Origin: a virus
DNA: 22,953 nucleotides
Reading direction: 5' to 3' (one strand)
IMG/VR virus record: IMGVR_UViG_3300029893_000071
Span: 1-22,953 of that record
The notes beneath the pieces are model-generated. The model was not told where the DNA came from and made no database searches. It saw only the letters and a program-made list of their open reading frames with translations. Below, piece by piece: positions 542 through 22,589 of the stretch. The position numbers and the translations under genes are program-made. How positions within the stretch are numbered: position 1 is the first letter of the stretch; the number at the start of each line of letters is the position of its first letter.

Positions 542-840
542 TTAAAACAAACTCCTTTCAACATCATATCAAAATATACTATCAATACTTCCTTTAGCAT
601 ATGCTTTGTTATAATATCTATCAGATTCAACATAGACTTGAATTCTTTTATAAGAACAAAATTCAAAAGTATCAAAATTTTCTAATAGATCTTCATACCA
701 TACATTATATACAATTAAAGAATTAATTTCTTCAATATCCTTCTAATTCTTCCTAATTAATTTTTTCAAGTAATACTTTATCTTTGGCATAGAAATATGC
801 ATCTCCATGTTCATATCTAATTACCAATTTATAACATTTT
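542..840 (-). pseudogene. Decayed small phage gene (unknown)
   Basis: The stretch after regA reads as one small protein of about 95-100 aa once repaired. It begins with C-Y-K-L-V-I-R-Y-E-H-G-D-A-Y-F and ends with Y-D-V-E-R-S-L-F and a TAA at 542-544. No good ATG is preserved; ATG-TTA-TAA near 845 suggests a start damaged by an indel. Disablements seen are an in-frame TAG at 753-755 between I-N and E-E-L-E, a frameshift near 740, and an in-frame TGA at 569-571 inside I-F-x-Y-D-V, where Trp fits. The middle (N-V-W-Y-E-D-L-L-E-N-F) is clearly protein-like. I do not recognise the family. Confidence 0.6.
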
Positions 841-845
841 TTTAA

Positions 846-1289
846 TTATTTATTACCATTTGATTTACTAAACTTATTTTTAACTCCAATATTATATTTA
901 GGTTCAATAGTCCAATCTTTCTTTTCTGAATAAGAAAGCACTTTAATCATACTCATAGGAAGAGTTTTAGTCTTAATTTCTTCAAATTTATCTCGATCTT
1001 TAATTTTTAATAGTTCCCATTCTTCTAATAATAATGCGATAGTATTCCTACGTGCAATATCATCATCAGAAATATTTGCATATTTATTATCCATTAAAAA
1101 TAATTCTTTAAACATCATTAAAGAATATCTTCCTTGTTTATGTAAAATATTAGTCGAAGGGAAAAGAGTTTTAGTTTTTCTAGAAGGAATTCCAATTCTT
1201 GATAAAGTTTCTTTAACTTTTAGAAAATCTTCATCATTAAACAATTCAACCTCAATACCTAAACCTCTAAAAATATCTTCATTTGTCAT
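846..1289 (-). CDS. regA: RegA translational repressor
   Basis: This 147-aa protein matches T4 RegA, an RNA-binding protein that represses translation of many early phage mRNAs by binding near their start codons. Matches to T4 include F-L-K-V-K-E-T-L near residue 22, the L-x-x-x-x-I-L-x-K-x-G-x-Y block, F-K-E-L-x-x-M-D, the A-x-R-R-x-x-I-A-x-L-L-E-x-W block, and the end K-x-x-W-x-x-x-P-K-Y-x-I-G. It is about 25 aa longer than T4 RegA, with a Lys/Asn-rich tail. The start has a strong GGAG Shine-Dalgarno. It lies downstream of 45, 44 and 62 as in T4, with one extra small gene between it and 62. DNA polymerase gene 43, next in T4, is not seen here; hsp20 follows instead. Confidence 0.93.
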   Translation of the reverse strand: MTNEDIFRGLGIEVELFNDEDFLKVKETLSRIGIPSRKTKTLFPSTNILHKQGRYSLMMFKELFLMDNKYANISDDDIARRNTIALLLEEWELLKIKDRDKFEEIKTKTLPMSMIKVLSYSEKKDWTIEPKYNIGVKNKFSKSNGNK

Positions 1290-1347
1290 CTTAATTCTCC
1301 ATTTATTTTATCTTAATTACATTATGCTGTCATATAACTACAACAAT

Positions 1348-1362
1348 ATTATTTATATTTAA
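1348..1362 (-). promoter_or_regulatory. Possible T4-type late promoter upstream of regA
   Basis: TATAAATA on the minus strand (1350-1357) overlaps the stop codon of the preceding gene and lies about 60 nt upstream of the regA ATG. The 15-mer around it is identical to that before hsp20 (515-529). Chance occurrence is likely in such AT-rich sequence. Confidence 0.25.
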
Positions 1363-1612
1363 AAATAATCTCAGAAACTTCAGAAATGATTTTATAATTT
1401 TGTTTTACAACATCTGTAAAATCGCAGAAACTTAAACTTTTTTCTAGATCAAACCATACTAATTTTTTCTCAGAACCTATAAATTTAGTAGTTGCTACAT
1501 ATGTATTCCTATTATAAATATACTTGATCAAATACCAATTACCGTGCATTTTATCAAAATCTAACTTTTCGCCTTCATAATCATATTCTTCTTTCATTAC
1601 AATTTTAGTCAT
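1349..1612 (-). CDS. Hypothetical protein between gp62 and RegA
   Basis: An 87-aa acidic-to-neutral protein with no signal peptide, membrane segment or motif that I recognise. It starts M-T-K-I-V-M-K-E-E-Y-D-Y and contains aromatic-rich beta-like stretches (N-W-Y-L-I-K-Y-I-Y, K-L-V-W-F-D-L). Its ATG overlaps the TGA of gp62 as ATGA, a sign of translational coupling in the replication operon. The position between 62 and regA has no counterpart in T4, so it is probably a lineage-specific accessory gene. Confidence 0.7.
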   Translation of the reverse strand: MTKIVMKEEYDYEGEKLDFDKMHGNWYLIKYIYNRNTYVATTKFIGSEKKLVWFDLEKSLSFCDFTDVVKQNYKIISEVSEIIFKYK

Positions 1613-1992
1613 TTTATTACATCTTCTTTATTACAAATTTGTTTAATATAATTTAATTGTTCGTCGTTTAATAAATCTAATATTTCATTAGCTTTTTTAT
1701 CAGAAACATTATAATATTCCTTTATCATTTCTATATTTTCTATTTTAGACGTTTTTATCCAAGGTTTGTATTCTCTATTCATTTTTCTAATAGAATAAAA
1801 CAAATAATCATAATGCATCTGATTAGAAATATTATGAATATAAGGATTAATTTCTTGAATAAATGGAATACAATCTAAATGATAACTTAACGCTTTGTCT
1901 ACTATGAATTTATTATAGCAACTCTCTTTGCTTACGTCAAGTTTATTCTTTCCGTTTAAAATAGATTTAATAATATCTTTGAATAAATCCAT
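1609..1992 (-). CDS. 62: Clamp loader small subunit gp62
   Basis: This 127-aa protein occupies the gene 62 slot directly after gp44 and fits a short, divergent gp62. T4 gp62 (187 aa) is one subunit of the gp44(4)/gp62(1) complex that loads the gp45 clamp at primer ends. The shared pattern is M-x-L-F-K-D at the start, then Y-x-K-F-x-V-x-x-A-L-S with C-x-P near residues 27-42, and an N-x-x-x-x-x-H-x-x-Y-L segment. Identification rests on these matches and on synteny. The start overlaps the gp44 stop (TAATATG). It ends at TGA overlapping the next ATG; reading that TGA as Trp would add only four residues. Sequence similarity alone is modest. Confidence 0.8.
   Translation of the reverse strand: MDLFKDIIKSILNGKNKLDVSKESCYNKFIVDKALSYHLDCIPFIQEINPYIHNISNQMHYDYLFYSIRKMNREYKPWIKTSKIENIEMIKEYYNVSDKKANEILDLLNDEQLNYIKQICNKEDVIK
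1912..1940 (-). promoter_or_regulatory. Consensus sigma70 promoter inside gene 62
   Basis: On the minus strand TTGACG (1935-1940) and TATAAT (1912-1917) are separated by exactly 17 nt, within the first third of the gp62 coding region. It points towards the unknown 87-aa gene, regA and hsp20 and could give them transcription independent of the clamp-loader mRNA. It is one of three such pairs in the window, all on the coding strand. Confidence 0.55.
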
Positions 1993-2929: not shown

Positions 2930-2937
2930 ATTTAATC

Positions 2938-3066
2938 CTATAATATTCTTTTAATAATATCAAATACAATTAAAGATAACCAAGATAAAGCTATAAAAAT
3001 AATAGCTATGTTAGCGGCATCATCTAATATAAAATATTTCCTAATCATTTCATATAATTTACTCAT
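2938..3066 (-). CDS. Small single-span membrane protein
   Basis: A 42-aa protein starting M-S-K-L-Y-E-M-I-R-K-Y-F. The ATG at 3066 overlaps the end of the DsbA-like gene, a coupled arrangement that supports this start over a longer in-frame one. Residues about 17-37 form one hydrophobic helix (A-A-N-I-A-I-I-F-I-A-L-S-W-L-S-L-I-V-F), followed by a short basic tail, so it should sit in the host inner membrane. It ends with TAG, one of only a few TAG terminators here. Function unknown. It separates 45/dsbA from 44, where T4 has no gene. Confidence 0.65.
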   Translation of the reverse strand: MSKLYEMIRKYFILDDAANIAIIFIALSWLSLIVFDIIKRIL

Positions 3067-3337
3067 TGACAATAACCCCTTCATACAAAGTTTGAAATTC
3101 TTGTTCTTCCTCAATGATTTTAGCATATTCATTTTTATGATATACCTTTGCCATTTTATTAACTACTTTTTTAGAAAGTCCTGTTTCATCTACTACAGAA
3201 TCTAAAATATCTTTGATTGCATTCTTTTGAGAATCTATGATTGTCATATAAGCAGAAATTTCTTTAATTCCATCTTTAAGAGTTTTAATTTTATCCAAAT
3301 CTAAAGTTTCATATTCATTAATAATAATTTGGTTCAT
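3059..3337 (-). CDS. dsbA: DsbA-like double-stranded DNA-binding protein
   Basis: A 92-aa protein resembling T4 DsbA (89 aa), a small protein that binds double-stranded DNA near late promoters and aids late transcription. The shared pattern is an alternating K-x-x-I-x-x-I-S-x-Y helix, I-x-D-I with D-E-x-G-L, then a L/M-A-x-x-Y-H-K-N/D block and an acidic E-E-x-x-x-L-Y-x-x-V end. I chose the ATG at 3337 because a GGAG Shine-Dalgarno precedes it and an upstream start would run into gene 45. In T4 dsbA sits beside gene 33; here it lies between 45 and 44. The identification is from remembered T4 sequence and needs a profile search. Confidence 0.75.
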   Translation of the reverse strand: MNQIIINEYETLDLDKIKTLKDGIKEISAYMTIIDSQKNAIKDILDSVVDETGLSKKVVNKMAKVYHKNEYAKIIEEEQEFQTLYEGVIVNE

Positions 3338-3339: not shown

Positions 3340-4020
3340 TTATTCTCCTTCTACAATAGAATCTTCGTCGCAAGCAATCCAATATTTAAGTTTCATTTCT
3401 TCATTATATAATTCTACAAATTTTTTATTAGAAATTGAAACAATATAATTTCCAATAACAATTTTTAAAAATTGTCGTTTTAAAACACATTTAAATACTT
3501 TATTATTACTTTCATCTGAAAGTTCAATAGAACTTATAGTACTTGAAGAATTTTCTTTATCATACGATACTAATTTAAAAATATTTCCATCTGATTCAAT
3601 TGCAATATTAGGAACTTCAGTTGCATTAGCTACCTTTAATATCCATTCTAAATTATCTTTAGTAAGAAGAAAAGAAGTAATATAATTCTTATTAGGTCTA
3701 GAATTAGTTGGTAAAATAATCATTTCTTTAGGGGCGTTACGATATTTTGTAATATTTTTACCATTTCCACTTTTAATTAGAAAATATTCATTATAAAATT
3801 CTAAATCTACGGCATTATCATAAAGAGCAAGAATTTTTAAAAATCTTTTTAAATCATAAATTCCAAATTCTTGAGGAAAATATTCTTCAATTTCTGCCTC
3901 CGAAAGAATATTTTTCCCTTCAGAAGTTGTAGCAATTATATTTCCTTTATTAAAATAAATTCCAGGATTAATTTCAGCATAATTCTTTAAAATTTCAATA
4001 GTATTACTAGATAATTTCAT
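3340..4020 (-). CDS. 45: Sliding clamp gp45
   Basis: A 226-aa clamp, close to T4 gp45 (228 aa), which forms a trimeric ring giving the polymerase processivity and acting as the mobile activator of late transcription. The N-terminus M-K-L-S-x-x-T-x-x-x-L-K-N-x-A-x-I-N-x-G-I is almost the same as T4, followed by a F-x-I-Y-D-L-x-x-F-L-x-I-L block. Later matches are sparser but follow the two-domain beta fold. An AGGAG Shine-Dalgarno precedes the ATG. It heads the 45-dsbA-44-62-regA cluster, in T4 order apart from the inserted small genes. Confidence 0.94.
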   Translation of the reverse strand: MKLSSNTIEILKNYAEINPGIYFNKGNIIATTSEGKNILSEAEIEEYFPQEFGIYDLKRFLKILALYDNAVDLEFYNEYFLIKSGNGKNITKYRNAPKEMIILPTNSRPNKNYITSFLLTKDNLEWILKVANATEVPNIAIESDGNIFKLVSYDKENSSSTISSIELSDESNNKVFKCVLKRQFLKIVIGNYIVSISNKKFVELYNEEMKLKYWIACDEDSIVEGE

Positions 4021-4031
4021 TTATATTTCTC

Positions 4032-4226
4032 CTATACATAAAAATCAATTTTATCAACCTGTTTAACTCTACAAAAATTAACTTCAAAAGATATTAAGTC
4101 TACATATAATATAATTGAAGATACTTACCATCTGTAAAATATTACGATAAGGTAATCTCCGTCGCTAGCTTCACACAACCAAAATTATTCTTCTTTTTCT
4201 ATTTCAATTACGTTTAATTCAATCAT
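4032..4226 (-). pseudogene. Decayed small gene between dNMP kinase and gp45
   Basis: A start M-I-E-L-N-V-I-E-I-E-K-E-E at 4226 runs into TAA (4185-4187), after which the same frame continues as F-W-L-C-E-A-S-D-G-D-Y-L-I-V. Two frame changes later the sequence reads T-D-G-K-Y-L-Q-L-Y-Y and then I-S-F-E-V-N-F-C-R-V-K-Q-V-D-K-I-D-F-Y-V, ending at TAG (4032-4034) just before the gp45 Shine-Dalgarno. The repaired product would be about 65 aa with beta-rich character. Family not recognised. Gln or Lys would fit at the TAA. Confidence 0.6.
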
Positions 4227-4242
4227 TTTATCGCCGCTAATT

Positions 4243-4884
4243 TTAATTATATATTAATTTCATCATTAAAAAAATATTTTTTTCTAACTTTTCTTGGTCT
4301 CTAACACCATTTTCATATAAATTATCTATTACATAATCAAAAGGTTTACATAAAAACGAATATTCAGACGAATGAACATTAGGATAAAAAGCTTTCATAT
4401 AATTTTCAGAATTATTAGGCAAAACATTTTTTTCATATTCTGGAATATTTCCATCATTTACCCTAACAATAATTCCATTATAATTTTTAATCATTAAATA
4501 TTCATTATCTGAATATCTATAATCAGAAATTACAACCTTTTCGTCTTTTTCTAATAAATCTTTTATTTTATTTTCTAATGATAAAACCCAGATATCTTTA
4601 TGAACTATTTCTCTAAACATATCCGTTCCTACTTTAGTCATCATATTTCTAGGAATCACTTCAAATCCTAATTTTTTAGACCACCATTCATCTTTACTTT
4701 CTCTAAATATCCTAGATTCTTCTGTTTCTCCTTCTAATAAATCTCTATCCCATCCAAAAATATTAGATAAAGAATCTTTCAAAGAATCGGCAAACGAAAA
4801 TTTCTGAAAATTATAATCTCTAACTAAAATATTAGCAACTGTACTTTTACCTACTCCTTTATATCCACATAATCCTATTAACAT
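4243..4884 (-). CDS. Deoxynucleoside monophosphate kinase
   Basis: A 213-aa P-loop kinase resembling T4 gp1, which phosphorylates dNMPs to dNDPs to supply replication. Motifs are the Walker A G-Y-K-G-V-G-K-S-T at residues 7-15, the F-S-F-A-D-S-L-K-D segment after it (compare A-x-P-I-K-D-A in gp1), a G-T-D-M-F-R-E block near the middle, and V-I-S-D-Y-R-Y (gp1: V-P-D-T-R), where the acid binds the nucleotide. I chose the ATG at 4884 because the P-loop follows within a few residues and GGGAAAAGG precedes it; an in-frame TTG at 4929 would add 15 residues but overlaps a small upstream ORF. Substrate specificity cannot be read from the sequence. Confidence 0.85.
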   Translation of the reverse strand: MLIGLCGYKGVGKSTVANILVRDYNFQKFSFADSLKDSLSNIFGWDRDLLEGETEESRIFRESKDEWWSKKLGFEVIPRNMMTKVGTDMFREIVHKDIWVLSLENKIKDLLEKDEKVVISDYRYSDNEYLMIKNYNGIIVRVNDGNIPEYEKNVLPNNSENYMKAFYPNVHSSEYSFLCKPFDYVIDNLYENGVRDQEKLEKNIFLMMKLIYN

Positions 4885-4916
4885 ACCTTTTCCCAAGAAA
4901 TAGTTAATCAACTTGT

Positions 4917-5015
4917 TTATAACAATCAAAAATAAAGAACTTTTCTTTTTTGTTTAATAAATTCTTTATTAACATCCTTAGCAGTTATACAAAACAAATG
5001 TTTAAAAATATTCAT
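4917..5015 (-). pseudogene. Small ORF with in-frame TGA upstream of dNMP kinase
   Basis: An ATG at 5015 with a good AGAGGA Shine-Dalgarno opens a basic reading frame, M-N-I-F-K-H-L-F-C-I-T-A-K-D-V-N-K, that meets TGA at 4926-4928 after 29 codons and TAA at 4917-4919 two codons later. It starts 2 nt after the stop of the preceding gene, typical of a coupled operon. It may be a genuine 29-aa peptide ending at TGA, or a 32-aa one with a Trp codon mutated. Function unknown. Confidence 0.4.
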
Positions 5016-5017
5016 AC

Positions 5018-5238
5018 TTAATCCTCTTTTAAATTACAAGAATTTATAAATTGTTCTTTATCTGGTAAATCCAACAAATTAAAAGCTGTTAAGAGTTTTA
5101 CAGAATAATAGACAAAAAATCCGTATTCCAAAGATTTAAATTCTCTGAGGTTTCTAAAGATTTAAATCTTTCTTCATTGTCTAATGAATCTTTGTTACCT
5201 TCTTCATGATAAATAAAAATTAAATTTCTAGTTATCAC
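5018..5238 (-). pseudogene. Small gene with a single frameshift (unknown)
   Basis: A GTG at 5238 with GGGAG upstream starts M-I-T-R-N-L-I-F-I-Y-H-E-E-G and continues to E-R-F-K-S-L-E. One missing base around 5145-5155 (GAAACC where GAAAACC restores the frame) joins it to L-R-E-F-K-S-L-E-Y-G-F-F-V-Y-Y-S-V-K and an end at TAA 5018-5020. The length, 221 nt, is one base short of a whole number of codons, as expected for one deletion. The restored protein would be about 73 aa. It overlaps the end of the upstream gene by 11 nt. Family not recognised. Confidence 0.6.
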
Positions 5239-5422
5239 AAAAATCTCCCAAAACTTCATATTCTTCTACGATATAAGGAGAATTTCGCGATTGTTTTGGG
5301 AATTCTTCTTTATATTTATTATTTAATTCTTCTTTTCTTTTATCTGCAGCATATTTATCTCCATAAACCGCAATAACATGATCTCCTAAATCTATCATTT
5401 CTAATAATATATAAACTTTCAT
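5228..5422 (-). CDS. Small conserved phage protein, DUF7336-like
   Basis: A 64-aa protein beginning K-V-Y-I-L-L-E. The sequence K-V-Y-I-L, a G-D-H turn, V-I-A-V-Y-G-D-K-Y-A-A-D-K-R-K-E-E-L and a final I-V-E-E-Y-E-V-L resembles a widespread small phage/bacterial family with a V-Y-x-L start, an I-G-V-Y strand followed by an A-rich helix, and a closing strand (I recall it as DUF7336). Function of the family is unknown. AAGGTG before the ATG is a suitable ribosome binding site. It ends at TAG, overlapping the next GTG start. Confidence 0.65.
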   Translation of the reverse strand: MKVYILLEMIDLGDHVIAVYGDKYAADKRKEELNNKYKEEFPKQSRNSPYIVEEYEVLGDFCDN

Positions 5423-5431
5423 TCTACACCT

Positions 5432-6159
5432 TTATTCTATTAATTTTCTAATATGATATTCATCATCATACGCTTCTTCATATAATTTTCCATTTTTCTT
5501 ATGTTTAGAAAATTGTAATGCAGACAATTTATATAACAATTAAATAACTTTTTCATTATTCATTGTTAAATTACAATAGACATATAATTCACCTAAAAAT
5601 CTTTCATAATCTTTTTTCCAAAGAAATCATTTTTCTATTATCATAATCAAACCAATATGAACTTTTTCTAAATTTTCAAAAAACTTCCTATTCACTAAGC
5701 AAATCAGTATTCAAAAATTTGTTCATCTGAACATTCGCATTTAAACTTGATTTTAGTATTACAGAGTTTACCCTAATACATGAATTCTTTTATACGTTTT
5801 TTATAACTAGGAAAAACATCTCTATAATTAATTTCTAACAAAACATTCTTTAGATATTCTGCAGTTTTATAATCATTAAAATAATCCAATATTTTCTACT
5901 TCTCTATTTTGAGACTTTCTAAAAGGATCTTCTGTAGAAGATTCTACCCATACTAAAAATATTTAATTTTTTTAATCGTATATAGATGATATACCAGGAT
6001 TTCATCTGTTTTAAAAATTAATTTATCTAAATTATTATCATATGCAGATCACCATTCTTCATATTATTCATTGCTTCTATATTCGGTTATACAAACTTGT
6101 TTTATATTAACTTTATATCCATAATATTTCTTTTCTCCTTTTTTAGAATTTTTATTCAT
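5432..6159 (-). pseudogene. Heavily decayed gene(s) at the head of the replication operon
   Basis: An ATG at 6159 with an AGGAT Shine-Dalgarno starts M-N-K-N-S-K-K-G-E-K-K-Y-Y-G-Y-K-V. In-frame TAA (6064-6066) and TGA (6049-6051) interrupt the block S-N-E-x-Y-E-E-W-x-S-A-Y-D. Then come frame changes near 6000 and 5883, further stops, and protein-like blocks V-W-V-E-S-S-T-E-D-P-F-R-K-S, N-D-Y-K-T-A-E-Y-L-K-N-V-L and F-L-G-E-L-Y-V-Y-C-N. A TAA at 5540-5542 precedes the end A-Y-D-D-E-Y-H-I-R-K-L-I-E (stop 5432-5434). It may be two former genes. It directly follows the promoter at 6185-6213. Family unknown. Confidence 0.65.
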
Positions 6160-6184
6160 ATCATCCTAACTTTTATATTATTTC

Positions 6185-6213
6185 ATTGTATCAAAAATTT
6201 TTCTCATTGTCAA
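6185..6213 (-). promoter_or_regulatory. Consensus sigma70 promoter for the replication operon
   Basis: TTGACA (6208-6213) and TACAAT (6185-6190) lie on the minus strand with a 17-nt spacer. Transcription would begin near 6178, about 20 nt before the first ATG at 6159, and run through dNMP kinase, 45, 44, 62 and regA. The near-perfect match implies recognition by unmodified host RNA polymerase early in infection. Confidence 0.8.
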
Positions 6214-6281
6214 CCTTTTTTTTAATAAGAACTTTTCATAAATATTATTATCTAACCAATTTTTAATATAAAGAAATTTAA

Positions 6282-7271
6282 ATGAACAATTTTATCAATA
6301 TAATCAAAGAATTATCTTATTCTAATAAATATACTAAATGGTATATCAACATTTGTTCCTCTGCATTAACAAGAGGAACTAATAAAAAAGAAATTTTAAA
6401 TAATTTTCTTTATATAGAAAAACATCATATAGTTCCAGATTCTTTCTTTATCAATTCTAAAAGAAATAATAATAAAGGAATATTAAAAGAAAATTCTAAT
6501 AATATTGAGAATTTAGTTTATTTAACTGCAAGAGAACATTTTATCGTTCATATGCTACTTCCTAAAATGATTATTAACGAAAACTTATCTCATAAAATTA
6601 GTTCTGCTATTTGTAAAATGATGAATAAAAATAAATATTATAATTCTCGTGCTTATGAAACCGCAAGAAAAATTTATTCTAAAAATCATCCTAATAAATT
6701 AAAAGAACAAAAAAATTTATTGAGTAAATTAAAATCTGATTATTTTAAATCTAAAAAAGGTAAAGAATGGTTGTCATCACAAAAAGAAAAACTTTCTATC
6801 TCTATGAAAGGAAAAAATAATTCTATGTACGGAAAAGAATCAGGATTTAAAAACAAAACACATTCCAAAGAACATATAAACAAACTTAAAAATAAAACCG
6901 GAGAACTTCATCACAACTATAAAAAGAAACCAAAGAACATTAAAAAATACTACATAATATCACCTACTAACGAAAAATTTTTACTCGAAACTAATGAAAT
7001 ATTAAAATTACTAAATACTTATCATAAAAAATTCAAACAATTATTAAATAAAGAAATCAATGATATAAATGGATATACCTTAGAACTATATAAAGATTAT
7101 TCCTTACCAAGTTATATAATAACAGATCTTAACAATAATGAATACAAAATATCTAATCTAAAACAATTTTGTAAACTTCATAATTTACATTACCAGTGTA
7201 TGATACAAATATTAAACAATACAAAACATCAACACAAAGGTTGGAAAATCAAAAAAATTATTAAGGATTAA
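6282..7271 (+). CDS. HNH homing endonuclease (free-standing)
   Basis: A 329-aa selfish endonuclease, the only intact plus-strand gene in the window. The HNH-type domain shows E-K-H-H-I-V-P-D-S-F at residues 46-55 and E-N-L-V-Y-L-T-A-R-E-H-F-I-V-H at 76-90, the phage homing-nuclease form (H48/H49, N77, H86, H90). A NUMOD3-type repeat (S-M-Y-G-K-E-S-G-F-K-N-K-T-H-S-K-E-H) follows at about 180-200, and the C-terminus carries NUMOD1-like DNA-binding helices (L-K-Q-F-C-K-L-H-N-L and H-K-G-W-K). It is convergent with the glycosyltransferase and divergent from the replication operon. The ribosome binding site is weak. It should cut related genomes lacking the insertion and spread by recombination. 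Confidence 0.88.
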   Translation: MNNFINIIKELSYSNKYTKWYINICSSALTRGTNKKEILNNFLYIEKHHIVPDSFFINSKRNNNKGILKENSNNIENLVYLTAREHFIVHMLLPKMIINENLSHKISSAICKMMNKNKYYNSRAYETARKIYSKNHPNKLKEQKNLLSKLKSDYFKSKKGKEWLSSQKEKLSISMKGKNNSMYGKESGFKNKTHSKEHINKLKNKTGELHHNYKKKPKNIKKYYIISPTNEKFLLETNEILKLLNTYHKKFKQLLNKEINDINGYTLELYKDYSLPSYIITDLNNNEYKISNLKQFCKLHNLHYQCMIQILNNTKHQHKGWKIKKIIKD

Positions 7272-7272
7272 T

Positions 7273-7535
7273 ATGACAATTTATTCAATATATAAAGTAA
7301 CAAATCTAATGAATAATAAAATTTACATAGACAAAACAACAAATTTTAAAAGAAAATCAAAAACTAAAAAAGATATTCTAAACTATTCTCATTAATTAAA
7401 GATAATTAAATATTTGAAATAATAAACGTTACAGATTTTTGTAAATTAAATGATTTAGATGAAAGTTCTATTTACAAATAGAAAAATAAAAAATATAAAA
7501 CTCATAAAGGATATTCTTTATATGAAGAAAATTGA
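7273..7535 (+). pseudogene. Dead GIY-YIG homing endonuclease
   Basis: An ATG 1 nt after the HNH gene stop opens 40 codons (to TAA at 7393-7395) reading M-T-I-Y-S-I-Y-K-V-T-N-L-M-N-N-K-I-Y-I-D-K-T-T-N-F-K. This is a GIY-YIG N-terminus with YIG changed to YID (a GGC to GAC change would do it). A remnant in another frame (V-T-D-F-C-K-L-N-D-L-D-E-S-S-I-Y-K, TAG, then T-H-K-G-Y-S-L-Y-E-E-N) is a NUMOD1-type DNA-binding tail. Most of the nuclease is deleted. It shows repeated homing-endonuclease invasion at this spot. Confidence 0.75.
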
Positions 7536-7562
7536 GGAATTATATATATAATTCCTCAATTT
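7529..7562. terminator. Bidirectional terminator in convergent junction
   Basis: A perfect 34-nt palindrome centred on TATATATATA, with arms AATTGAGGAAT and ATTCCTCAATT, lies between the plus-strand nuclease genes and the minus-strand glycosyltransferase. T-rich sequence follows on both strands. It can end transcription from both sides. Confidence 0.75.
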
Positions 7563-7581
7563 ATATTTTACAAATAATTTA

Positions 7582-12940: not shown

Positions 12941-12945
12941 ATATT

Positions 12946-15308: not shown

Positions 15309-15336
15309 AAAAATTCCAAGTTGTTAATATAAAAAC

Positions 15337-15344: not shown

Positions 15345-15347
15345 TCC

Positions 15348-15776
15348 TTATCCTAAACAAATTAGTGTGAAGTTTTCATCATATCTAGTATAAGAATATA
15401 TTTTTTTGATAAGCGAAGATAAAGAATTTTCCTTAATAAACGAATAATCATCTATCCATAAATTTCTTATTATAAAATATTCTCCAAATCCTATATTAAA
15501 GTCTTTCAATGTAGTTACTCCAGATAAACAATCTATATGATTTGTATTATACAATTTATTAGGAGTAATAACAAAATCTCCTTTTCTATAATTATTTTTT
15601 ATATAAGTCGTTTTACCAACTACTCTTCCGATATTAACATTTACAGTACAATATTCCTTTATCCACTCTTATTTAGAATAACTATCTTTATTAATCACAG
15701 AAGATCTAACTGCTAAATTTAACATTCTAAGATTATCTACTAAATCTGAAAAATTTTTATAAATATATTGGTTCAT
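15348..15776 (-). pseudogene. P-loop NTPase-like gene interrupted by one TAA
   Basis: A 143-codon frame begins M-N-Q-Y-I-Y-K-N-F-S-D-L-V at 15776, overlapping the PDF stop (ATGA), and ends with TAA at 15348-15350. Its sole defect is TAA at 15669-15671 (codon 36) between D-S-Y-S-K and E-W-I-K-E-Y-C. Downstream is a Walker A-like N-I-G-R-V-V-G-K-T-T-Y-I and a Walker B-like N-L-W-I-D-D-Y-S, spaced as in a small ATPase. A CAA to TAA change would explain the stop. If translation restarts at the TTG of 15554, the Walker A would be lost. The protein's role is unknown. Confidence 0.7.
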
Positions 15777-16384
15777 TTTAATCTCATCAGCTCTTTAAAA
15801 TTATAATTAAACCCATATTTTTTAGCTTTTTTAACTGCAGCTTCTAACTTTATTTTAGAAATTCCCTTAAAAAAGGGTTCTCCTAAAATATGTTGAAATT
15901 CGTGTACTATAATTCTTGCTGTTAATCCACTAAATTCCTGTACATGATATTCTCCATTAAAATCTTGATATTTTAAAGTGATATAATTAGGTCGTTTGAT
16001 ATAAACGCCCAATCCAGGAAAAGATAAACAAGATTCACAAAAAAGAGAAGTTTCTTCTGAATATTTAATAATTTCTGGATTAAAAAACGTTACAATATCA
16101 TCCAAATAACCAATAGAAAAAATTCTAAAATTAATTCCAATTTGATTGGCAGATAATCCATATCCTTTATAATATTTAAGATTTTCTTCCATTACCAACG
16201 CTACTTGTTTAGCTGGAGGAATATCATGATTAGTAAAATTATAATATGGAAGATTTTTATCATATAAAACCGGATTATTATATTCTAATAATTTAAAAAT
16301 ATGAACCCCAATTTTATCATCTTGTAATTTTTGTTCTTGAACTTTTTCATAATCCAAAGTTTTGTATACATATTCTTCAACCAT
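15773..16384 (-). CDS. def: Peptide deformylase
   Basis: A 203-aa metalloenzyme that removes the formyl group from the N-terminal Met of new proteins. All three signature motifs are present: G-Y-G-L-S-A-N-Q (74-81), E-S-C-L-S (117-121, the Cys binds the metal) and H-E-F-Q-H (161-165, two His ligands and the catalytic Glu). Phage-encoded deformylases are well known in cyanophages and other T4-like phages and are thought to sustain maturation of host or phage proteins. Its ATG overlaps the TGA of the Cys-rich gene, and its own TGA overlaps the next ATG, so it sits in a tightly coupled operon. A longer N-terminus than the minimal phage enzymes is present. Confidence 0.95.
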   Translation of the reverse strand: MVEEYVYKTLDYEKVQEQKLQDDKIGVHIFKLLEYNNPVLYDKNLPYYNFTNHDIPPAKQVALVMEENLKYYKGYGLSANQIGINFRIFSIGYLDDIVTFFNPEIIKYSEETSLFCESCLSFPGLGVYIKRPNYITLKYQDFNGEYHVQEFSGLTARIIVHEFQHILGEPFFKGISKIKLEAAVKKAKKYGFNYNFKELMRLK

Positions 16385-16586
16385 AATTAATCCATTCTCC
16401 TTTTATAAAATTAAGCTTCCTAATATAAATTTTATTTAAAGTATCTTCATCTAATTTATATCCGCAACAATGTTTAGTTAATTCCCTTTCTGCTCCTCCG
16501 CAAATTTCGCAATATTTTAAATCTCCATCACAAAATTTACATCCGTATTTATTACAACTGCATTTATAATATAAATGTTCATTCAT
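16377..16586 (-). CDS. Small Cys-rich (zinc-binding) conserved phage protein
   Basis: A 69-aa protein with paired cysteines: K-C-S-C, G-C-K-F-C, Y-C-E-I-C-G-G-A-E and H-C-C-G-Y-K. The stretch C-x-x-C-G-G-A-E ... L-T-x-H-C-x-G followed by a G-E-W near the end matches a small phage family I recognise by sight, thought to be zinc-binding but without known function. I chose ATG 16586, which has AGAGGAG upstream, over an in-frame start 18 nt earlier lying over that Shine-Dalgarno. It terminates at TGA overlapping the deformylase ATG (ATGGTTGA), good evidence that TGA is a working stop here. Confidence 0.75.
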   Translation of the reverse strand: MNEHLYYKCSCNKYGCKFCDGDLKYCEICGGAERELTKHCCGYKLDEDTLNKIYIRKLNFIKGEWINYG

Positions 16587-16623
16587 AACATCTCCTCTTT
16601 CCAAATACTAATATTAATTATCA

Positions 16624-17157
16624 TTATTCCCAATCCCATTGAACATCTTTTAATACTTTACCATTATTTTTATAAACATTTTCTAAGTAATCAATTTCAG
16701 ATAATTTAGATCTTAATCTAATATAAACATTTCCTTCATATACTAAAGGAGTTGAACTTCCTTTAAAATAATTTCCTACATCATGATAAAATTGTAAATC
16801 TTTATCATGTTTAAATTTAATAACAGGAAAATTTCTTTCTCCAAATAAATCTTCAACAGGGGTTCCTATATTTAATCTACATTCTTCATAAGTTTCATAT
16901 TCATCAATTAATGATAATTTTTCGCCAATATGTCCAAAATGTTCAGAATACCATTCATTTGGTATAATATTATACATATACCCTTCCAATTCAAAAGTTT
17001 TATTATCATATTTTAATTTATAAATTGTTTGTAAATGTGTCGGGATACCTGCAATAAACTTATTTTCTAAATATAAATTATAAAGGGGTTTGTTAATAGG
17101 ATCATTAAGATAATCTTCTACAGAATTATATTCTTTGGTATTAGACTGTCTCTCCAT
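16624..17157 (-). CDS. Hypothetical protein, 177 aa
   Basis: A 177-aa soluble acidic protein with no recognised motif. It starts M-E-R-Q-S-N-T-K-E-Y-N-S-V-E-D-Y-L-N-D-P and contains a Y-N-I-I-P-N-E-W-Y-S-E-H-F-G-H-I-G-E-K-L stretch and a V-Y-I-R-L-R-S-K strand; it ends D-V-Q-W-D-W-E. The ATG overlaps the 3' end of the upstream interrupted gene by 17 nt, without a clear Shine-Dalgarno, which implies coupling. Between gp46 and peptide deformylase, it is likely an accessory early gene. Confidence 0.65.
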   Translation of the reverse strand: MERQSNTKEYNSVEDYLNDPINKPLYNLYLENKFIAGIPTHLQTIYKLKYDNKTFELEGYMYNIIPNEWYSEHFGHIGEKLSLIDEYETYEECRLNIGTPVEDLFGERNFPVIKFKHDKDLQFYHDVGNYFKGSSTPLVYEGNVYIRLRSKLSEIDYLENVYKNNGKVLKDVQWDWE

Positions 17158-17368
17158 TGCAGTATTGGGAATATTTTCTACTAACTAATTTCACTTTTCT
17201 TTTATAATTATCCATGTCTAAATAGTCTATATTAAAAATATTATCAATATATCCTGAAGCTAAATATTAGGTTCCTTTTTCTAAAATAGCCCAAACTTTG
17301 TCTTTATTTTCAATTCTTTTGTTGTTAACCCAACCAATTCCAAAATGTTTAATAATAACAGTATACAT
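17141..17368 (-). pseudogene. Small gene downstream of gp46 with one in-frame TAA
   Basis: A 76-codon frame, M-Y-T-V-I-I-K-H-F-G-I-G-W-V-N-N-K, overlaps the gp46 stop (TAATG) and runs to TAA at 17141-17143. The only interruption is TAA at 17267-17269 (codon 34) between E-K-G-T and Y-L-A-S-G-Y-I-D-N; CAA to TAA would explain it. As it stands a 33-aa peptide results. Family unknown; beta-rich start and helical end. Confidence 0.6.
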
Positions 17369-19080
17369 TATAATATCTCCTCAATTCTACTAAAATTCTT
17401 ATTTTTACTAATCTTAATTTTTCTATCAAAATGTTCATCTAACATTTCATTTTTATGAGAAATAATAAAAATATTTTGGTTCTCAAATAATGAGATTAAT
17501 TTAAACAAATCCTCTACACATTGTCCATCTCCGGAGCCATCTGCAACTTCATCCATTATCAATAAATTACAATTAACAGAATTTTTAATTTTCGCTATAT
17601 CCCTAAAAGCAAACAAAATAGCCAAATTAATTCTTAATTTTTCTCCTTCAGAAAAAGAATTAATTTTATATTCATCCATATATCTACTTTTAATAACTTC
17701 TTCAAAAGATTCATTAAAATAAAATGAAACAAAAAAATTCATTTCATTCAAATAATGATTTATCCTTTTATTAAGAATAGGAATATATTGTTTAATAATT
17801 AAACTTTTAATTCCATCGTCTTTCAACATTTCTAATATAAAATCATAATGATTCTTATCATTTTCTAAATTATTATTTTCTAAAACTAATCTGTCTAATT
17901 TATTTTCAAATACTTTTATTTCTTTATAATATTCCTCTAAATCTGTTTTATTATTTAATTCTTTTATTTCTTTATAAAATTTTTCTATATTGAAATTATA
18001 ATTTTTAATATCAGAATCTATTCTACTAACATTATTTCTTATATTATTAATTTCTTCAATTATTTTTTCAATCTCTAATATCTTATTTTTTAATATTTTT
18101 AATCCGTTATCTACTTTATTTTTCTTCTCATTATAAATAATTAATTCTTCTTTATTTTTTATTAATATATTATTTTTAAATTCTAGATTTAAAGATTGTT
18201 TACAAGTAGGGCATTCGTCATAATTTTCGTAAAAAGAATTTTCTTTTATTATTCTTTTCTCTTCCGATTCTACTTTAGCTTTTATTTTTATTCCTTTTTG
18301 TTGTTTTTCATAAACTTCTTGTTTATTAGAAATCTTATCTAATAATTCAGTTATCTGTGAATCTAAAAATTGTTTCTTAATTTCTAATTCTTTAATATTT
18401 TCTTTATATAAAGATATATCACTATTTCTTTTATCAATTAATTCTTCATTATTCTTTTTTTGTGAATCAATAACTTTTTGATTAGATTTTATTTTCTCTT
18501 TAATTAAAGTTTTTTCATGTTCTAAATCTAGAAGTTCCTTTTTAATATCCTTTAATTTTTCTTTAACTAATCCATTCATAAAAGAAAAAATTTTAATATC
18601 TAATAATTCTTCTACTAATTCTCTTCTATCTGCTAGAGATAAATCCATAAAAGATGCATATTTAGCAGAACCTAATATAACTACATTAATAAAAGTTTTA
18701 TAATTAATACCTAATATAGTTTCTAATATTTTTTGATAGTCGTTAATATTATTAGGAGAAGGAATTAAATTATCATTCTTATATATTTGAAATATATTAG
18801 GTTTAATTCCTCTGATTATTTTATAAAATTTATTATTATTTTCAAAATATAATTCTACTACACAATCTTTTTTATTTATAGAATTGATAATATCAGATTT
18901 GTTAATTTTTCTATACGGTTTCCCGTATAGAGAAAAAACAATAGCGTCTAATAAGACTGATTTTCCAGAACCATTAGAAGCAGAAATTATATTAGTTTTA
19001 TAATTATCTAATATAATTTCTGTATAATAATTACCATAACTAAAAAAATTCTTAAATTTTATTTTTTTTAATACTAACAA
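17368..19080 (-). CDS. 46: Recombination endonuclease subunit gp46 (SbcC/Rad50-like)
   Basis: A 570-aa SMC-like ATPase, close to T4 gp46 (560 aa). With gp47 it resects DNA ends for recombination-dependent replication and degrades host DNA. Walker A S-A-S-N-G-S-G-K-S at 33-41, the Q-loop region L-G-S-A-K-Y near 136-141, long coiled coils at about 165-285 and 300-415, the zinc-hook C-P-T-C at 290-293, ABC signature F-S-E-G-E-K at 476-481, Walker B L-L-I-M-D-E at 506-511, then I-I-S-H-K. No ATG fits: TTG at 19080 is the likely start, with AAGG 10 nt upstream. This long, homopolymer-rich gene is undamaged. Confidence 0.96.
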   Translation of the reverse strand: MLVLKKIKFKNFFSYGNYYTEIILDNYKTNIISASNGSGKSVLLDAIVFSLYGKPYRKINKSDIINSINKKDCVVELYFENNNKFYKIIRGIKPNIFQIYKNDNLIPSPNNINDYQKILETILGINYKTFINVVILGSAKYASFMDLSLADRRELVEELLDIKIFSFMNGLVKEKLKDIKKELLDLEHEKTLIKEKIKSNQKVIDSQKKNNEELIDKRNSDISLYKENIKELEIKKQFLDSQITELLDKISNKQEVYEKQQKGIKIKAKVESEEKRIIKENSFYENYDECPTCKQSLNLEFKNNILIKNKEELIIYNEKKNKVDNGLKILKNKILEIEKIIEEINNIRNNVSRIDSDIKNYNFNIEKFYKEIKELNNKTDLEEYYKEIKVFENKLDRLVLENNNLENDKNHYDFILEMLKDDGIKSLIIKQYIPILNKRINHYLNEMNFFVSFYFNESFEEVIKSRYMDEYKINSFSEGEKLRINLAILFAFRDIAKIKNSVNCNLLIMDEVADGSGDGQCVEDLFKLISLFENQNIFIISHKNEMLDEHFDRKIKISKNKNFSRIEEIL

Positions 19081-19182: not shown

Positions 19183-20226
19183 TCATAAATTCTCTGCTTC
19201 TCTATATAATTCTTCGAATCTAATTTTGAGGTATTCTTTATCTAATCCATTTAATTCTATATTAGAAATATATTCATTCCAAATTTCTAAAGTGTTTTTA
19301 CTTTCTATAACAAAATTTTCGTTGTTATTTTCAACTAAAAATTCCTTTTCTATTATATTTACATTATAACATATTTCATTCAACTTATCAACATATTCTT
19401 TGAATTTTTCTTTGTTTTCTTTTTCAAGAACAATTAATTTTACATAACTATCCTTATATTCTTCATAATTTAATTTTAAATTATCTGTATATTCAATTTT
19501 ATGATATAATCTATAAAAATTTTTTATATATTCTAATCTGATTTCATCTAATACAAAAAATCCTTTTTCTTCTTCTAAAGAAGCCCAGGTATCTTGATAA
19601 GGTTGTCCTATATATAAAATATTATCTTTTTCTTGTTTGTAATGAAAATGTCCAGCAAACACCTTATGATATTTTTTAAATAATTTCTTATCCATTCCAT
19701 TAGAACATTCAATTCCATATTTAGAAAATCTTAATCCATTAATTTCAGGATGCGCAAAACAATATTTAGATTTAGATTTTTTAATAAATTCAAATATTTG
19801 TTCTTCGTTATCTTTACATACCCAAGGTATTAAATCGAATTTAATATTACTGATATTAATAGTAGATGGATTAGAATATATACTAATATTGTCATAATAT
19901 CCTATATCTTTAATTAATAATTCTGGAGAATTGATTGATAAATCATGTTTATTAGATTTATCATGATTACCAATAATAATATGCGTTTCAATAGAATATT
20001 CTTTTAATTTATCAAAGAAAAATTCTCTGCATTGTTTAAGAGTATTATATTGAATATGTTTAGGATTATCAAATAAATCTCCTAGTTGAACAAGTATTTT
20101 TATATCATTATCTAATAAATAAGGAAAAAATACTTGTTCGAAAAACTTTCTCTGATAATTAAGTATATTTTCATTGCCATTTTTCATTCCAAAATGAAGA
20201 TCTCCTAATATAGCTATTTTATTCAT
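19183..20226 (-). CDS. 47: Recombination endonuclease subunit gp47 (SbcD/Mre11-like)
   Basis: A 347-aa metallophosphoesterase nuclease (T4 gp47 is 339 aa), partner of gp46 in processing DNA ends. Mre11 motifs in order: G-D-L-H-F-G (8-13), Q-L-G-D-L-F-D (47-53), I-I-G-N-H-D (84-89), F-A-H-P-E (157-161) and A-G-H-F-H (191-195). D-L-I-P-W (131-135) and Y-I-G-Q-P-Y are shared with T4. The end E-E-L-Y-R-E-A matches T4 (N-Q-L-Y-V-E-A). It ends at TGA; reading this as Trp leads into non-protein-like sequence with three more TGAs, so TGA functions as stop. Its ATG overlaps the TGA of the preceding damaged gene. Confidence 0.95.
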   Translation of the reverse strand: MNKIAILGDLHFGMKNGNENILNYQRKFFEQVFFPYLLDNDIKILVQLGDLFDNPKHIQYNTLKQCREFFFDKLKEYSIETHIIIGNHDKSNKHDLSINSPELLIKDIGYYDNISIYSNPSTINISNIKFDLIPWVCKDNEEQIFEFIKKSKSKYCFAHPEINGLRFSKYGIECSNGMDKKLFKKYHKVFAGHFHYKQEKDNILYIGQPYQDTWASLEEEKGFFVLDEIRLEYIKNFYRLYHKIEYTDNLKLNYEEYKDSYVKLIVLEKENKEKFKEYVDKLNEICYNVNIIEKEFLVENNNENFVIESKNTLEIWNEYISNIELNGLDKEYLKIRFEELYREAENL

Positions 20227-20369
20227 AAAAACTCTATGTCTTTTATTTTTCCGTTATCATCATAAATAATTTTTTATATGAAATTCCGTTGAGTTTATAA
20301 ACTTCTAAAAATTTAAATGATACCATATGATAAATATCTTGATATATTATTAATAGTAACTTCTGACAT
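20223..20369 (-). pseudogene. Small gene before gp47 with two frameshifts
   Basis: It starts M-S-E-V-T-I-N-N-I-S 1 nt after the previous stop. A frame change near 20334 gives Q-D-I-Y-H-M-V-S-F-K-F-L-E-V-Y-K-L-N-G-I-S-Y-K-K, and one missing A in the A6 run near 20268-20273 restores I-Y-D-D-N-G-K-I-K-D-I-E-F-L and a TGA overlapping the gp47 ATG. The repaired protein is about 50 aa and beta-rich. The coding pattern on both sides of each indel is excellent, so damage is recent or an error. Family unknown. Confidence 0.6.
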
Positions 20370-20370
20370 A

Positions 20371-20925
20371 TTAACATCCTCTATATAAATTAGTCATAAA
20401 ATTATCCCATTCTTCTTTATTCATAATTTTATTCTCATTTTTCATTGCTTTGTCCAATGCTTCTCTTTTTGTATAGGAATATGATAATCCTGTATTAAAT
20501 TTATACATTTTTCTACCATCTATTAATTCAATTTCATTAATATTAACATAATTTTCTAACAACCAATTTACCTTTCTCATTTCAGAATGAAATTTTTTCA
20601 ACGAGTCATCTATTCCCCAATAAAGTTTATCTTCTGCTGATTTAGGATTAATTAAATAAGTTAAATCATTATATCCTCCAGCTCCTAAATAAGACGAAAC
20701 TTTCCTCAAAACATTATCATATCTATAACTTAACTCACGATAACAAGTTAAAGCAAAAAAATTTAATTCTATTAAATTATCATTATTAGTATATTTTTTA
20801 TATAATTCTCTTAACTTAGAATCTTCTTCTAAAAATCCTTTCTCTTCATATTCCTCATACTCTTGAATTAAATTAACTAATAAATCATTATCAATTTCTG
20901 ATCTAATAAATGCTAACATGTCCAT
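20371..20925 (-). CDS. Hypothetical protein, 184 aa
   Basis: A soluble, helical, acidic protein (M-D-M-L-A-F-I-R-S-E-I-D-N-D-L-L, then a Glu-rich Y-E-E-Y-E-E-K segment). A V-S-S-Y-L-G-A-G-G-Y-N-D-L loop and S-A-E-D-K-L-Y-W-G-I-D-D at its centre are distinctive and probably conserved in the phage family, but I cannot assign a function. GGAGG before the ATG is one of the strongest Shine-Dalgarno sites here, implying high expression. It lies two genes upstream of the recombination pair 47/46. Confidence 0.7.
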   Translation of the reverse strand: MDMLAFIRSEIDNDLLVNLIQEYEEYEEKGFLEEDSKLRELYKKYTNNDNLIELNFFALTCYRELSYRYDNVLRKVSSYLGAGGYNDLTYLINPKSAEDKLYWGIDDSLKKFHSEMRKVNWLLENYVNINEIELIDGRKMYKFNTGLSYSYTKREALDKAMKNENKIMNKEEWDNFMTNLYRGC

Positions 20926-20928
20926 AGA

Positions 20929-21092
20929 TTATTCCTCCACACATTCTTTACAACCAAGATAACAAATCATTTCTGGTAATGGATCGTTTTCATATCTAGC
21001 AATCCTTTCCATTCTTCTAATATTGATCTTATTAAGATTAATTCATCTAATTCTATAAACAATGTTGCAGAATTTCGTTTTTTATAATTCAT
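20929..21092 (-). pseudogene. Small gene with one frameshift (unknown)
   Basis: It begins M-N-Y-K-K-R-N-S-A-T-L-F-I-E-L-D-E-L and, after one missing base near 21035-21045, continues N-L-N-K-I-N-I-R-R-M-E-R-I-A-R-Y-E-N-D-P-L-P-E-M-I-C-Y-L-G-C-K-E-C-V-E-E to TAA 20929-20931. The 164-nt length is one short of whole codons. The C-terminal C-Y-L-G-C-K-E-C may bind zinc. Its ATG lies 3 nt after the preceding TGA, in the same frame. Family unknown. Confidence 0.55.
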
Positions 21093-21095
21093 AAA

Positions 21096-22085
21096 TCATC
21101 GATTATTTTTAATAAAATTTTTAATTTCTTCTGTGCTAGTATTTAATATCCATTCATTAAATTTATCTTCACTTCCAATTGAATCCTTTAACTTTTTAAT
21201 ATGTTTTCCTAAATCTTTTCCTTCTAAACCTGATATCTCGTATACTAATTTTCCATTGAATTTTTCTTTTACAAGTTTTCTAGTATAAAATTTTTCTAGT
21301 TCTTTATTATATTCATATTTAAATCCAGGAAATTTTTCAAAAGCTTCTAATAATTTCTCTTGTTTAATTTCTTCATAATAATCAAATCCTGTTTCTTCAT
21401 ATGTTTCTAACCATTCTAAATATTGAATATAAGTTTTTCTTTTTCTATCTCTAACTCTAGACTTATGACCCCTATTTCCTAATAAATAATACTCTTTATT
21501 GTGATATTTAGAAGATGAAGCATATTTAAATATATCTTCTAACTCATAGAAATTACCATAATATTTTGTATCATATCCTAAAAAATCTAAAGCAGAATAA
21601 AATACTTCTGTTATATTAATATCACATATTTTAGAACAAATATTATCTTTATCTCTTAAAGTGTAATACAATCCTTCATGACCAAATTTAAATCCTAATT
21701 TATGAGCAACTACCCCAATAAAATTTCCTAAATCATTATATGCAAAATAATTATAAGCAAAAGCAAATTTAAACCTTGAAACTTTTATAAAATCAATTTG
21801 GAAATTTCCTTTTGGAGTTGGATAAGCAATTGAAACCACAGGACCATTTTTAATTATTTCTATAGGATTAATCTTATCAATCACTTTATATAAGTTATCA
21901 AAATTATTATATTCAAAATATAATATATCCATATCTCCAAAACTATCTTTATTTTCATATGATTTAATCAATTCTGCTTTAGATTTATAACCATTAGAAT
22001 TAAAAATGTTAAAGATCTCATTATAAACTTGTAAATATTCTTTTTTATCTAATCTAATCGAATTTTTAATAGCATTTCCGCCCAT
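21096..22085 (-). CDS. Nucleotidyltransferase-fold phage protein
   Basis: A 329-aa protein resembling a conserved phage family with a nucleotidyltransferase-like core. Landmarks: M-G-G-N-A-I-K-N at the start, K-D-S-F-G-D-M-D-I-L at 47-55 (G50, D51 and D53 as the NTase metal-binding pattern), F-Q-I-D-F-I at 95-100 (third acidic residue D98), then Y-F-A-Y-N-D-L-G-N-F-I-G-V-V-A-H-K-L-G at 113-131. The C-terminal half is helical and Lys/Glu-rich, like the accessory domain of tRNA nucleotidyltransferases. Substrate unknown. GGTG precedes the ATG. It terminates at TGA, 3 nt before the next ATG. Confidence 0.75.
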   Translation of the reverse strand: MGGNAIKNSIRLDKKEYLQVYNEIFNIFNSNGYKSKAELIKSYENKDSFGDMDILYFEYNNFDNLYKVIDKINPIEIIKNGPVVSIAYPTPKGNFQIDFIKVSRFKFAFAYNYFAYNDLGNFIGVVAHKLGFKFGHEGLYYTLRDKDNICSKICDINITEVFYSALDFLGYDTKYYGNFYELEDIFKYASSSKYHNKEYYLLGNRGHKSRVRDRKRKTYIQYLEWLETYEETGFDYYEEIKQEKLLEAFEKFPGFKYEYNKELEKFYTRKLVKEKFNGKLVYEISGLEGKDLGKHIKKLKDSIGSEDKFNEWILNTSTEEIKNFIKNNR

Positions 22086-22091
22086 AATAAT

Positions 22092-22589
22092 TCACCATAT
22101 AATTTTATCAAATACATTATATGACAGTTTTATCTCTTTAAATTCTATTAAATTATTCTTATAATTGTTCAATAATAAATCTCTAATTTCATATTCTGTA
22201 ATTTTATCTTTAGATAACTTACCAATTGAACAATTTGCATAATTAGTATCAGATTTTAACCAAAATAATCAATAATAATTTTTAGTTTTTCCTAAAAATA
22301 CAGAATCTTCTTGTAAATGACGTAATATTATTCTAGAATAAGAATCTTTATACATTAAAGAATTTTCTTTATGAAAGAATTGCTTTCATCTTTCATTATT
22401 AGAATGATTTTTTAATATTACATATTTAATTGGAATTATATAATTTATAAAACTTAATAAATAATAACCACTTACCTCTTTATATAAAATTCCTTCTTCT
22501 ATATTCCTTTCAATTAAATATTCAACATTATTTTCTGTTCTTACAACTTTGTTAAAGTATTTATGAAAATCTGGCATAATATCTATCAT
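22092..22589 (-). pseudogene. Unknown gene with two in-frame TGA codons
   Basis: A single 166-codon frame from ATG 22589 (AGGTGA upstream) to TGA 22092-22094 contains TGA at 22386-22388 (N-N-E-R-x-K-Q-F-F-H-K) and 22269-22271 (K-N-Y-Y-x-L-F-W-L-K), both plausible Trp positions, with no frameshift and no TAA/TAG. As read by a normal ribosome it gives a 67-aa fragment. It begins M-I-D-I-M-P-D-F-H-K-Y-F and ends V-F-D-K-I-I-W. Family not recognised. Its own terminator is TGA too, in frame with the downstream gene. Confidence 0.65.

Follow-up and report, generated by a model that had tools for sequence, protein, structure and literature searches.

Accessory genes of a very AT-rich T4-like phage fragment appear to have been inactivated one after another beside an intact ancestral gene block

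We analysed a stretch of viral DNA of 22,953 bases (IMG/VR record IMGVR_UViG_3300029893_000071), hereafter the window, meaning the whole stretch, which is a fragment of a very AT-rich T4-like phage (22.6% guanine plus cytosine, GC). A first-pass annotation had described accessory genes broken by in-frame stops and single-base insertions or deletions (indels) beside intact core genes, and we confirmed this observation: stops and frameshifts break nine supported accessory readings, and no defect is found in the eleven genes of a conserved T4-type replication and recombination block. The explanation that we consider probable is a real, staggered inactivation of accessory genes in a T4-type phage that has kept its ancestral block whole.

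The 16 stop triplets reported earlier (8 TGA, 6 TAA and 2 TAG, all on the minus strand) are present where they had been placed. We followed the reading frames with a codon-usage path, trained on intact open reading frames (ORFs), in which passing a stop or shifting frame is allowed at a penalty, and compared the coding score of each gap between ORFs with dinucleotide shuffles, which yields a Z score. Fourteen of the 16 stops lie on this path; the TGAs at 569 and 4926 are not used by it. At 569 the path favours a shift near 580 over the stop, and TGA 4926 could just as well terminate, in the normal way, a 29-codon ORF that has a Shine-Dalgarno-like sequence (by eye). The path also crosses stops that had not been listed, which include 4125, 5627, 5773 and 13435 and, on the plus strand, 7407 and 7479. 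Nine broken readings are supported, psA, psB, psD, psE, psG, psH, psI, psK and a homing endonuclease at 8400-9929, and coding signal or homology continues past their stops and frameshifts. Their defect load varies from one stop in 1,527 nucleotides (the homing endonuclease, 509 codons) to about one defect per 100 nucleotides (psG, psD and psA). Readings kept outside the nine as weak or unsupported are 4900-5227 (Z 3.0 for the gap 4930-5097), 11721-11963 (Z 0.8), 12440-12800 (Z 1.9 for 12439-12945), 20227-20371 (Z 2.1 for 20227-20370), 20926-21095 (Z 2.5) and psL, possibly a small broken gene on the minus strand with one shift near 22635 (22609-22753; weak, Z 3.2-3.5, the higher value for 22590-22755).

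Homology supports three of the broken genes. One is psG (13370-14122, minus strand), of the Acb3 family of inhibitors of the cyclic oligonucleotide-based antiphage signalling system (CBASS). It lacks an intact ORF, its path carrying four stops (TGA 13869, TGA 13540, TAG 13450 and TAA 13435) and four shifts, and TAA 13365 sits just past it. The gap that contains it, 13210-14222, has a Z of 7.0, and its read-through matches Pfam PF25187 (E 2.8e-13, 50.7 bits against a cut-off of 27) and phrog_7203 (E 7e-11). In a six-frame family search that is independent of the path, PF25187 again rises above cut-off at 13447-13665 (E 9e-12), a hit that spans one TGA and one TAG; when psG is divided into four separate pieces, one falls under cut-off (E 5e-4) and three are unmatched. 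Judged from its frames, psG is a dead member of the Acb3 family, not a functional one. It had no match in NCBIfam or PADLOC, its read-through had none by tblastn in phage records, there was no solved structure and no hit in 15 related virus records searched, and we found no paper in the open-licence literature treating both Acb3 and CBASS. The homing endonuclease (8400-9929, minus strand) is interrupted by the single TGA 9510; its read-through aligns with phrog_3339 over residues 2-506 of 509 (E 1e-66) and has matches in 397 phage records, with annotated intact homologues among relatives. One piece of it, 9285-9509, has a Z of 6.0 and is itself free of defects. The third, psE (7272-7535, plus strand), is a homing-endonuclease remnant with a GIY-YIG-like start (by eye), a shift near 7390, TAA 7407 and TAG 7479 (phrog_2081, E 4e-6; Z 3.0 for 7272-7581).

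The other six readings are all on the minus strand. psH (15348-15776) has one TAA at 15669 and a P-loop-like motif (by eye); its support is a path score of 19.7 and weak homology (phrog_1488, E 1e-3; tblastn E 1e-4 to Xanthomonas phage X1) rather than the shuffle test. psI (17141-17368), a 75-codon gene with one TAA at 17267, retains a Shine-Dalgarno sequence, a start and its natural stop (start and end by eye; Z 5.5 for 17158-17367), and its best family match reaches only E 0.1. psD (5435-6160; Z 5.6 for 5423-6281) has eight defects on the path, namely TAA 6064, TGA 6049, TAG 5773, TGA 5627, TAA 5540 and three shifts. psA (540-845; Z 4.8 for 452-845), followed on the path, has TAG 753, a shift near 734 and then either TGA 569 or the shift near 580, and it matched no family. 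psK (22092-22589; Z 5.2 for 22086-22385) carries TGA 22386 and TGA 22269, and psB (4035-4227; moderate, Z 3.0-3.4, with 3.0 for 4021-4242) carries TAA 4185 and TAA 4125. For psG and psE an intact homologue is indicated by the family model only, for psH the indication is weak, and for psA, psD and psK the family searches found none.

The genes that surround these remnants form a T4-type block, read on the minus strand: Hsp20 (26-451; PF00011, E 2e-15; phrog_432), the translation repressor regA (846-1289; phrog_242, E 1e-44), the clamp loader subunit gp62 (1609-1992; phrog_225), the clamp loader gp44 (1994-2929; phrog_168, E 4e-108; tblastn matches in 2542 phage records), a transcription regulator that we take to be gp33 (3059-3337; phrog_639, 'transcriptional regulator', E 1e-17), the sliding clamp gp45 (3340-4020; phrog_223, DNA polymerase processivity factor, E 1e-51), a deoxynucleoside monophosphate (dNMP) kinase (4243-4884, its ATG at 4884 picked by eye; PF21448, E 5e-12; phrog_139), a glycosyltransferase-like (GT-like) protein (7582-8379; phrog_1574, of unknown function, E 2e-51; weak glycosyltransferase match, E 6e-5; 66% identity to its counterpart in related locus L061), peptide deformylase (PDF; 15773-16384; PF01327, E 2e-31; phrog_2890) and the recombination endonuclease subunits gp46 (17368-19080; phrog_77, E 7e-144; tblastn) and gp47 (19183-20226; phrog_100, SbcD-like, E 2e-90). 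None of the 11 is broken, in agreement with the earlier statement that the core genes, including gp44 to gp47 and PDF, are intact. We compared this block with 126 related loci, all distant, obtained by profile scans with gp44 (46 loci) and with the GT-like protein (best 80 loci). In the six loci in which all 11 genes were found (E 1e-5 or better), gene order is the same as in the window (6/6). The span from Hsp20 to gp47 is 20,201 nucleotides here and 7,513-17,823 nucleotides in 24 relatives, about twofold over their median, as distances between tblastn edges within stretches of at most about 21 kb, in which longer blocks are undetectable. The excess is concentrated in three spacers: 2,697 nucleotides between dNMP kinase and the GT-like gene (median of relatives 5; as large in 0 of 41), 7,393 between the GT-like gene and PDF (median 1,756; as large in 1 of 40) and 983 between PDF and gp46 (median 77; as large in 0 of 40); a 12-kb limit that we had set removed no row. 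The added DNA lies at 4930-7580, 8400-15772 and 16385-17367, junctions that are short in most relatives. These three spacers contain psD, psE, the homing endonuclease, psG, psH and psI, six of the nine readings counted as broken and supported, so that the broken genes are mostly in DNA absent from most relatives; psA and psB occupy other block spacers, and psK is outside the block. The extra spacer DNA appears to have been gained by this lineage rather than lost by the others.

As a yardstick for the density of defects we then took the 68 related loci that reach 8 kb, which total 942 kb and group into 56 clusters at 90% identity; the 58 shorter ones were left out. The screen counts gaps with at least one defect, because several zero-defect gaps in relatives were failures of ORF picking, and relatives were not pruned by eye. 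It finds 8 broken-like gaps in the 22.95 kb of the window versus 5 in the 942 kb of the 68 relatives, at most one per locus; the window gap at 2930-3058 is doubtful, as a small intact ORF (2938-3132) probably ends there, and 7 remain if it is removed. The screen overlooked psE, and it overlooked psH and the homing endonuclease because their pieces are open ORFs or free of defects. ORFs cover 76% of the window versus 84-99% (median 95%) of the relatives. No broken-like gap appears in the eight relatives under 30% GC, nor in the three (L078, L125 and L127) that have an insert of similar size in one spacer. As controls, the first 50 kb of Campylobacter phage CP220 (27.6% GC) contain 2 such gaps, one of them over an annotated repeat array with a negative score, and the first 50 kb of Escherichia phage ime09 contain none. 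The gaps of the relatives, L082:2329-2516, L113:6954-7150, L121:8321-8560, L136:4030-4222 and L030:4122-4285, are possible isolated pseudogenes; that of L030 is borderline, as its near-copy L032 was not called and calls around Z 3 are unstable. The density of defects, unmatched in the relatives, is odd for a phage, as had been remarked, and the contrast between core and accessory genes is sharper than first described, with 68 related loci as yardstick and six of the nine broken genes in enlarged spacers.

The nature of the mutations is less clear-cut than had been proposed. The first-pass annotation held that the stops sit where Trp or Gln fits, and this finds no support at 9510, the only stop that was aligned with relatives: of 8 relatives, hand-picked from 20 among the 397 matching records and including two that look identical there, none has Trp, the residues being Gly (four), His (two), Asn (one) and Pro (one) in a poorly conserved linker. 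Under a neutral AT-biased model built on the codons of the window, stops arise from Gln (0.27), Glu (0.24) and Trp (0.18), Gln and Trp together accounting for about 45%. The tallied stops, 8 TGA, 8 TAA and 4 TAG, are near this model, with at most a slight surplus of TGA (p 0.07) and shortage of TAA (p 0.06); the tally of 20 was made by hand, without the 12440-12800 reading and 13365, and with 569 taken as a stop. Of the earlier proposal of G:C to A:T mutation plus indels under relaxed selection, relaxed selection on accessory genes is retained, and a G:C to A:T bias is plausible at this base composition without being demonstrated. Megablast against 50,697 phage records found no close relative, although very near records may be absent from the collections, and scans of viral contigs with single proteins found none with the ThyX-like protein or gp46 and five, distant, with gp44.

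Several points weigh against a real inactivation of the accessory genes. The nearest relatives are distant (best identities 49% for gp44 and 66% for the GT-like protein), the most AT-rich relative screened, at 26.2% GC, is still above the window, and five relatives have one broken-like gap each. Family searches gave nothing above cut-off for psA, psB, psD and psK, four of the nine supported readings, and the spacers of psA and psB are little or not enlarged, spacers as large occurring in 15 of 49 and 2 of 38 relatives. The contrast in broken genes, 0 of 11 in the block versus 9 of about 26 elsewhere (hand count, p 0.025), is modest, a looser hand count giving 12 of 29 (p 0.009). Accessory genes may also have lower coverage, in which case an artefact driven by depth would likewise strike them only. 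A localised sequence or assembly error, in which accessory genes present in fewer strains would be covered at lower depth and left with an unpolished consensus, was among the alternatives named at the outset and remains the main rival, still live but in our judgement improbable. Uniform error is rejected: if the 33 defects tallied by hand fell at an even rate across the roughly 20.8 kb of coding sequence, the 7,959 nucleotides of the block would escape all of them with a probability of 1e-7 to 3e-6, a test that does not cover local error driven by depth. Against the latter, inferred shifts show no enrichment near homopolymers (3 of 15 close to runs of at least 5, versus 19.9% of random coding positions), and 70 A or T runs of at least 6 within intact ORFs contain no shift, with the caution that these ORFs were chosen for being open. 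Stops, at 20, exceed shifts, at 9 to 15, a range set by the weak readings that are kept and by how psA, whose end is ambiguous, is read. A stop results from 4-7% of random substitutions in these codons, so that 20 stops imply about 300-500 substitutions, or roughly 20-55 per indel, a load that would resemble evolution and be unlike the indel-rich error of long reads and far above that of a short-read consensus. Sequencing error thus fits poorly, because the shifts are not homopolymer-enriched and stops exceed shifts; the broken genes are, in addition, unequal in their load of defects.

That the inactivation of some genes was selected, beyond being tolerated, is in our judgement unlikely. An anti-CBASS protein can trigger a guard such as Panoptes, so that its loss would benefit the phage, and the Acb3-family inhibitor is among the most decayed genes of the window. 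A single selected hit would not yield eight defects, although later drift could, and it would leave the broken homing endonucleases and the remaining broken readings unexplained; in the accessible part of PMC12657218, moreover, deletion of acb1 from T4 is without effect under Panoptes, and that part concerns Acb2 and makes no mention of Acb3. It is very unlikely that the window belongs to the relic of a dead or integrated phage whose genes are all decaying: the record is possibly a fragment, and prophages do carry pseudogenes, but the block is whole in all 11 of its genes, several long accessory ORFs are likewise unbroken, and the window proteins that were searched revealed neither an integrase nor a host gene. 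Recoding, in which stops of some genes would be read through by an alternative code or a suppressor transfer RNA (tRNA), had also been named earlier and is now the least credible alternative, extremely improbable in our estimate. Reading TGA as Trp does join psK and the homing endonuclease, which contain TGA only. However, recoding fits very poorly because all three stops occur together with frameshifts; TGA terminates 8 of the 28 ORFs examined, as under the standard genetic code, no block gene has an internal stop, and the sole tRNA that ARAGORN detected in the window is a tRNA-Gly (TCC; 12828-12903, minus strand). No single stop is reassigned throughout, core included, as an alternative code would have it. 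Genetic code 4 was tried and rejected, as the other stops and the shifts persist.

Real, staggered inactivation would be accounted for as follows. Accessory genes amounting to several kilobases (homing endonucleases, a CBASS inhibitor and small genes of unknown function) would have entered the spacers of the block. Selection on many of them may then have lapsed, after a host shift, in a host without CBASS or at the end of a spent homing cycle, and the cargo would decay stepwise where it lies, through point mutations and small indels, its genes at different ages. The defects, their absence from the 11 block genes, the enlarged spacers and the excess over relatives are observed; from these we infer that the defects are real mutations, that selection lapsed and that deletion has lagged behind point mutation. 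The loss of Acb3 could have been neutral in a CBASS-free host or favoured, perhaps by opposing selection, and an extension of the escape from Panoptes through Acb2 to Acb3 may be hypothesised by analogy. The host of the phage may be without CBASS, or it may possess a guard that turns an anti-CBASS protein into a liability. A broader possibility, which we regard as doubtful, is that a virulent T4-type lineage is in reductive decay like that of a symbiont, with extreme AT content, acquired genes fossilising, slow deletion, weak selection and an anti-CBASS gene lost in a host without CBASS or with a Panoptes-type guard; if so, phage pseudogenes could record past hosts and defences. As for the host, the pattern of the tRNA-Gly had no strict match in bacterial genomes and loose matches in 3 unrelated genomes, and matches to phage tRNAs were scattered across many hosts, none of which can be assigned. 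The common view is that phages soon rid their genomes of dead genes. Roughly one third of the extra genes are broken here, which is unusual for a compact virus and, beside an intact core, offers a natural experiment on the rate and cause of gene loss in phages.

Several accessory genes of the window are intact. A homing endonuclease ORF (6282-7271; phrog_655, E 1e-24; NUMOD3 slightly under cut-off) lies on the opposite, plus strand, and at 6282-7530 it stands in tandem with the broken homing remnant, between dNMP kinase and the GT-like gene. The ThyX-like gene (10401-11720, minus strand; PF02511, E 8e-16) is free of defects, as had been noted; it encodes a divergent protein of 439 amino acids, is unmatched in the 126 related loci and has tblastn matches at 24-29% identity in 6 phage records, five from Vibrio phages (278-291 kb) and one from a Tunturiibacter phage. 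A metallophosphoesterase gene (14223-15308, minus strand; phrog_20266, E 4e-73) adjoins the dead Acb3 gene; it is matched by 28 phage records, the best from Bordetella, Roseobacter and Stenotrophomonas, and two of these matches are each split into two parts, one of which bears the annotation LAGLIDADG homing endonuclease. Between the tRNA-Gly and psG, 12946-13209 gave sub-threshold matches (Pfam, E 0.005, under cut-off; PADLOC, E 0.002) that we took as chance. Directly past Hsp20, positions 1-20 form a perfect hairpin with G-rich and C-rich arms (by eye), perhaps a terminator, and at the other edge a reading that leaves the window (22756-22953) looks like the C-terminus of the 8400-9929 homing endonuclease (by eye).

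In their known life cycle, homing endonuclease genes become fixed, are then freed from selection and degenerate. The window has two broken genes of this type; the other seven supported ones are not recognised as homing genes, and the plus-strand homing ORF is unbroken. No directly comparable account of pseudogenes in virulent phages was found in the open-licence literature, which is not proof of absence, and the nearest cases come from other systems. In the Wolbachia WO prophages, the accessible text of PMC3173496 gives a pseudogene content of 2.1-13.6% where pseudogenes are present, and suggests that uncharacterised regions are under relaxed selection. Both there and here a phage genome has a measurable fraction of pseudogenes, but the WO prophages as described in that text are temperate, live in an obligate intracellular host and also bear transposon insertions, whereas the window, which shows no sign of integration, holds a T4-type replication block, and its breaks are point mutations and small indels. 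With Panoptes, 14 of 15 T4 escapers were mutated exclusively in acb2, with deletions, frameshifts and stops among the changes, and a premature stop in acb2 is reported for phage PaMx41 (PMC12657218, accessible part). The likeness lies in a T4-type phage losing an anti-CBASS gene through stops and frameshifts; in the Panoptes case, as far as that part of the source goes, the gene is Acb2 and the mutations are fresh from the laboratory, whereas in the window it is a member of the Acb3 family with many accumulated defects, and further genes are broken. Failed horizontal transfers have been put forward as a source of prokaryote pseudogenes (PMC522871, in the portion available), and as in that account acquired genes decay here and native ones remain intact; the survey, in that portion, concerns prokaryote genomes, whereas the window comes from a virus whose conserved block serves as an internal control.

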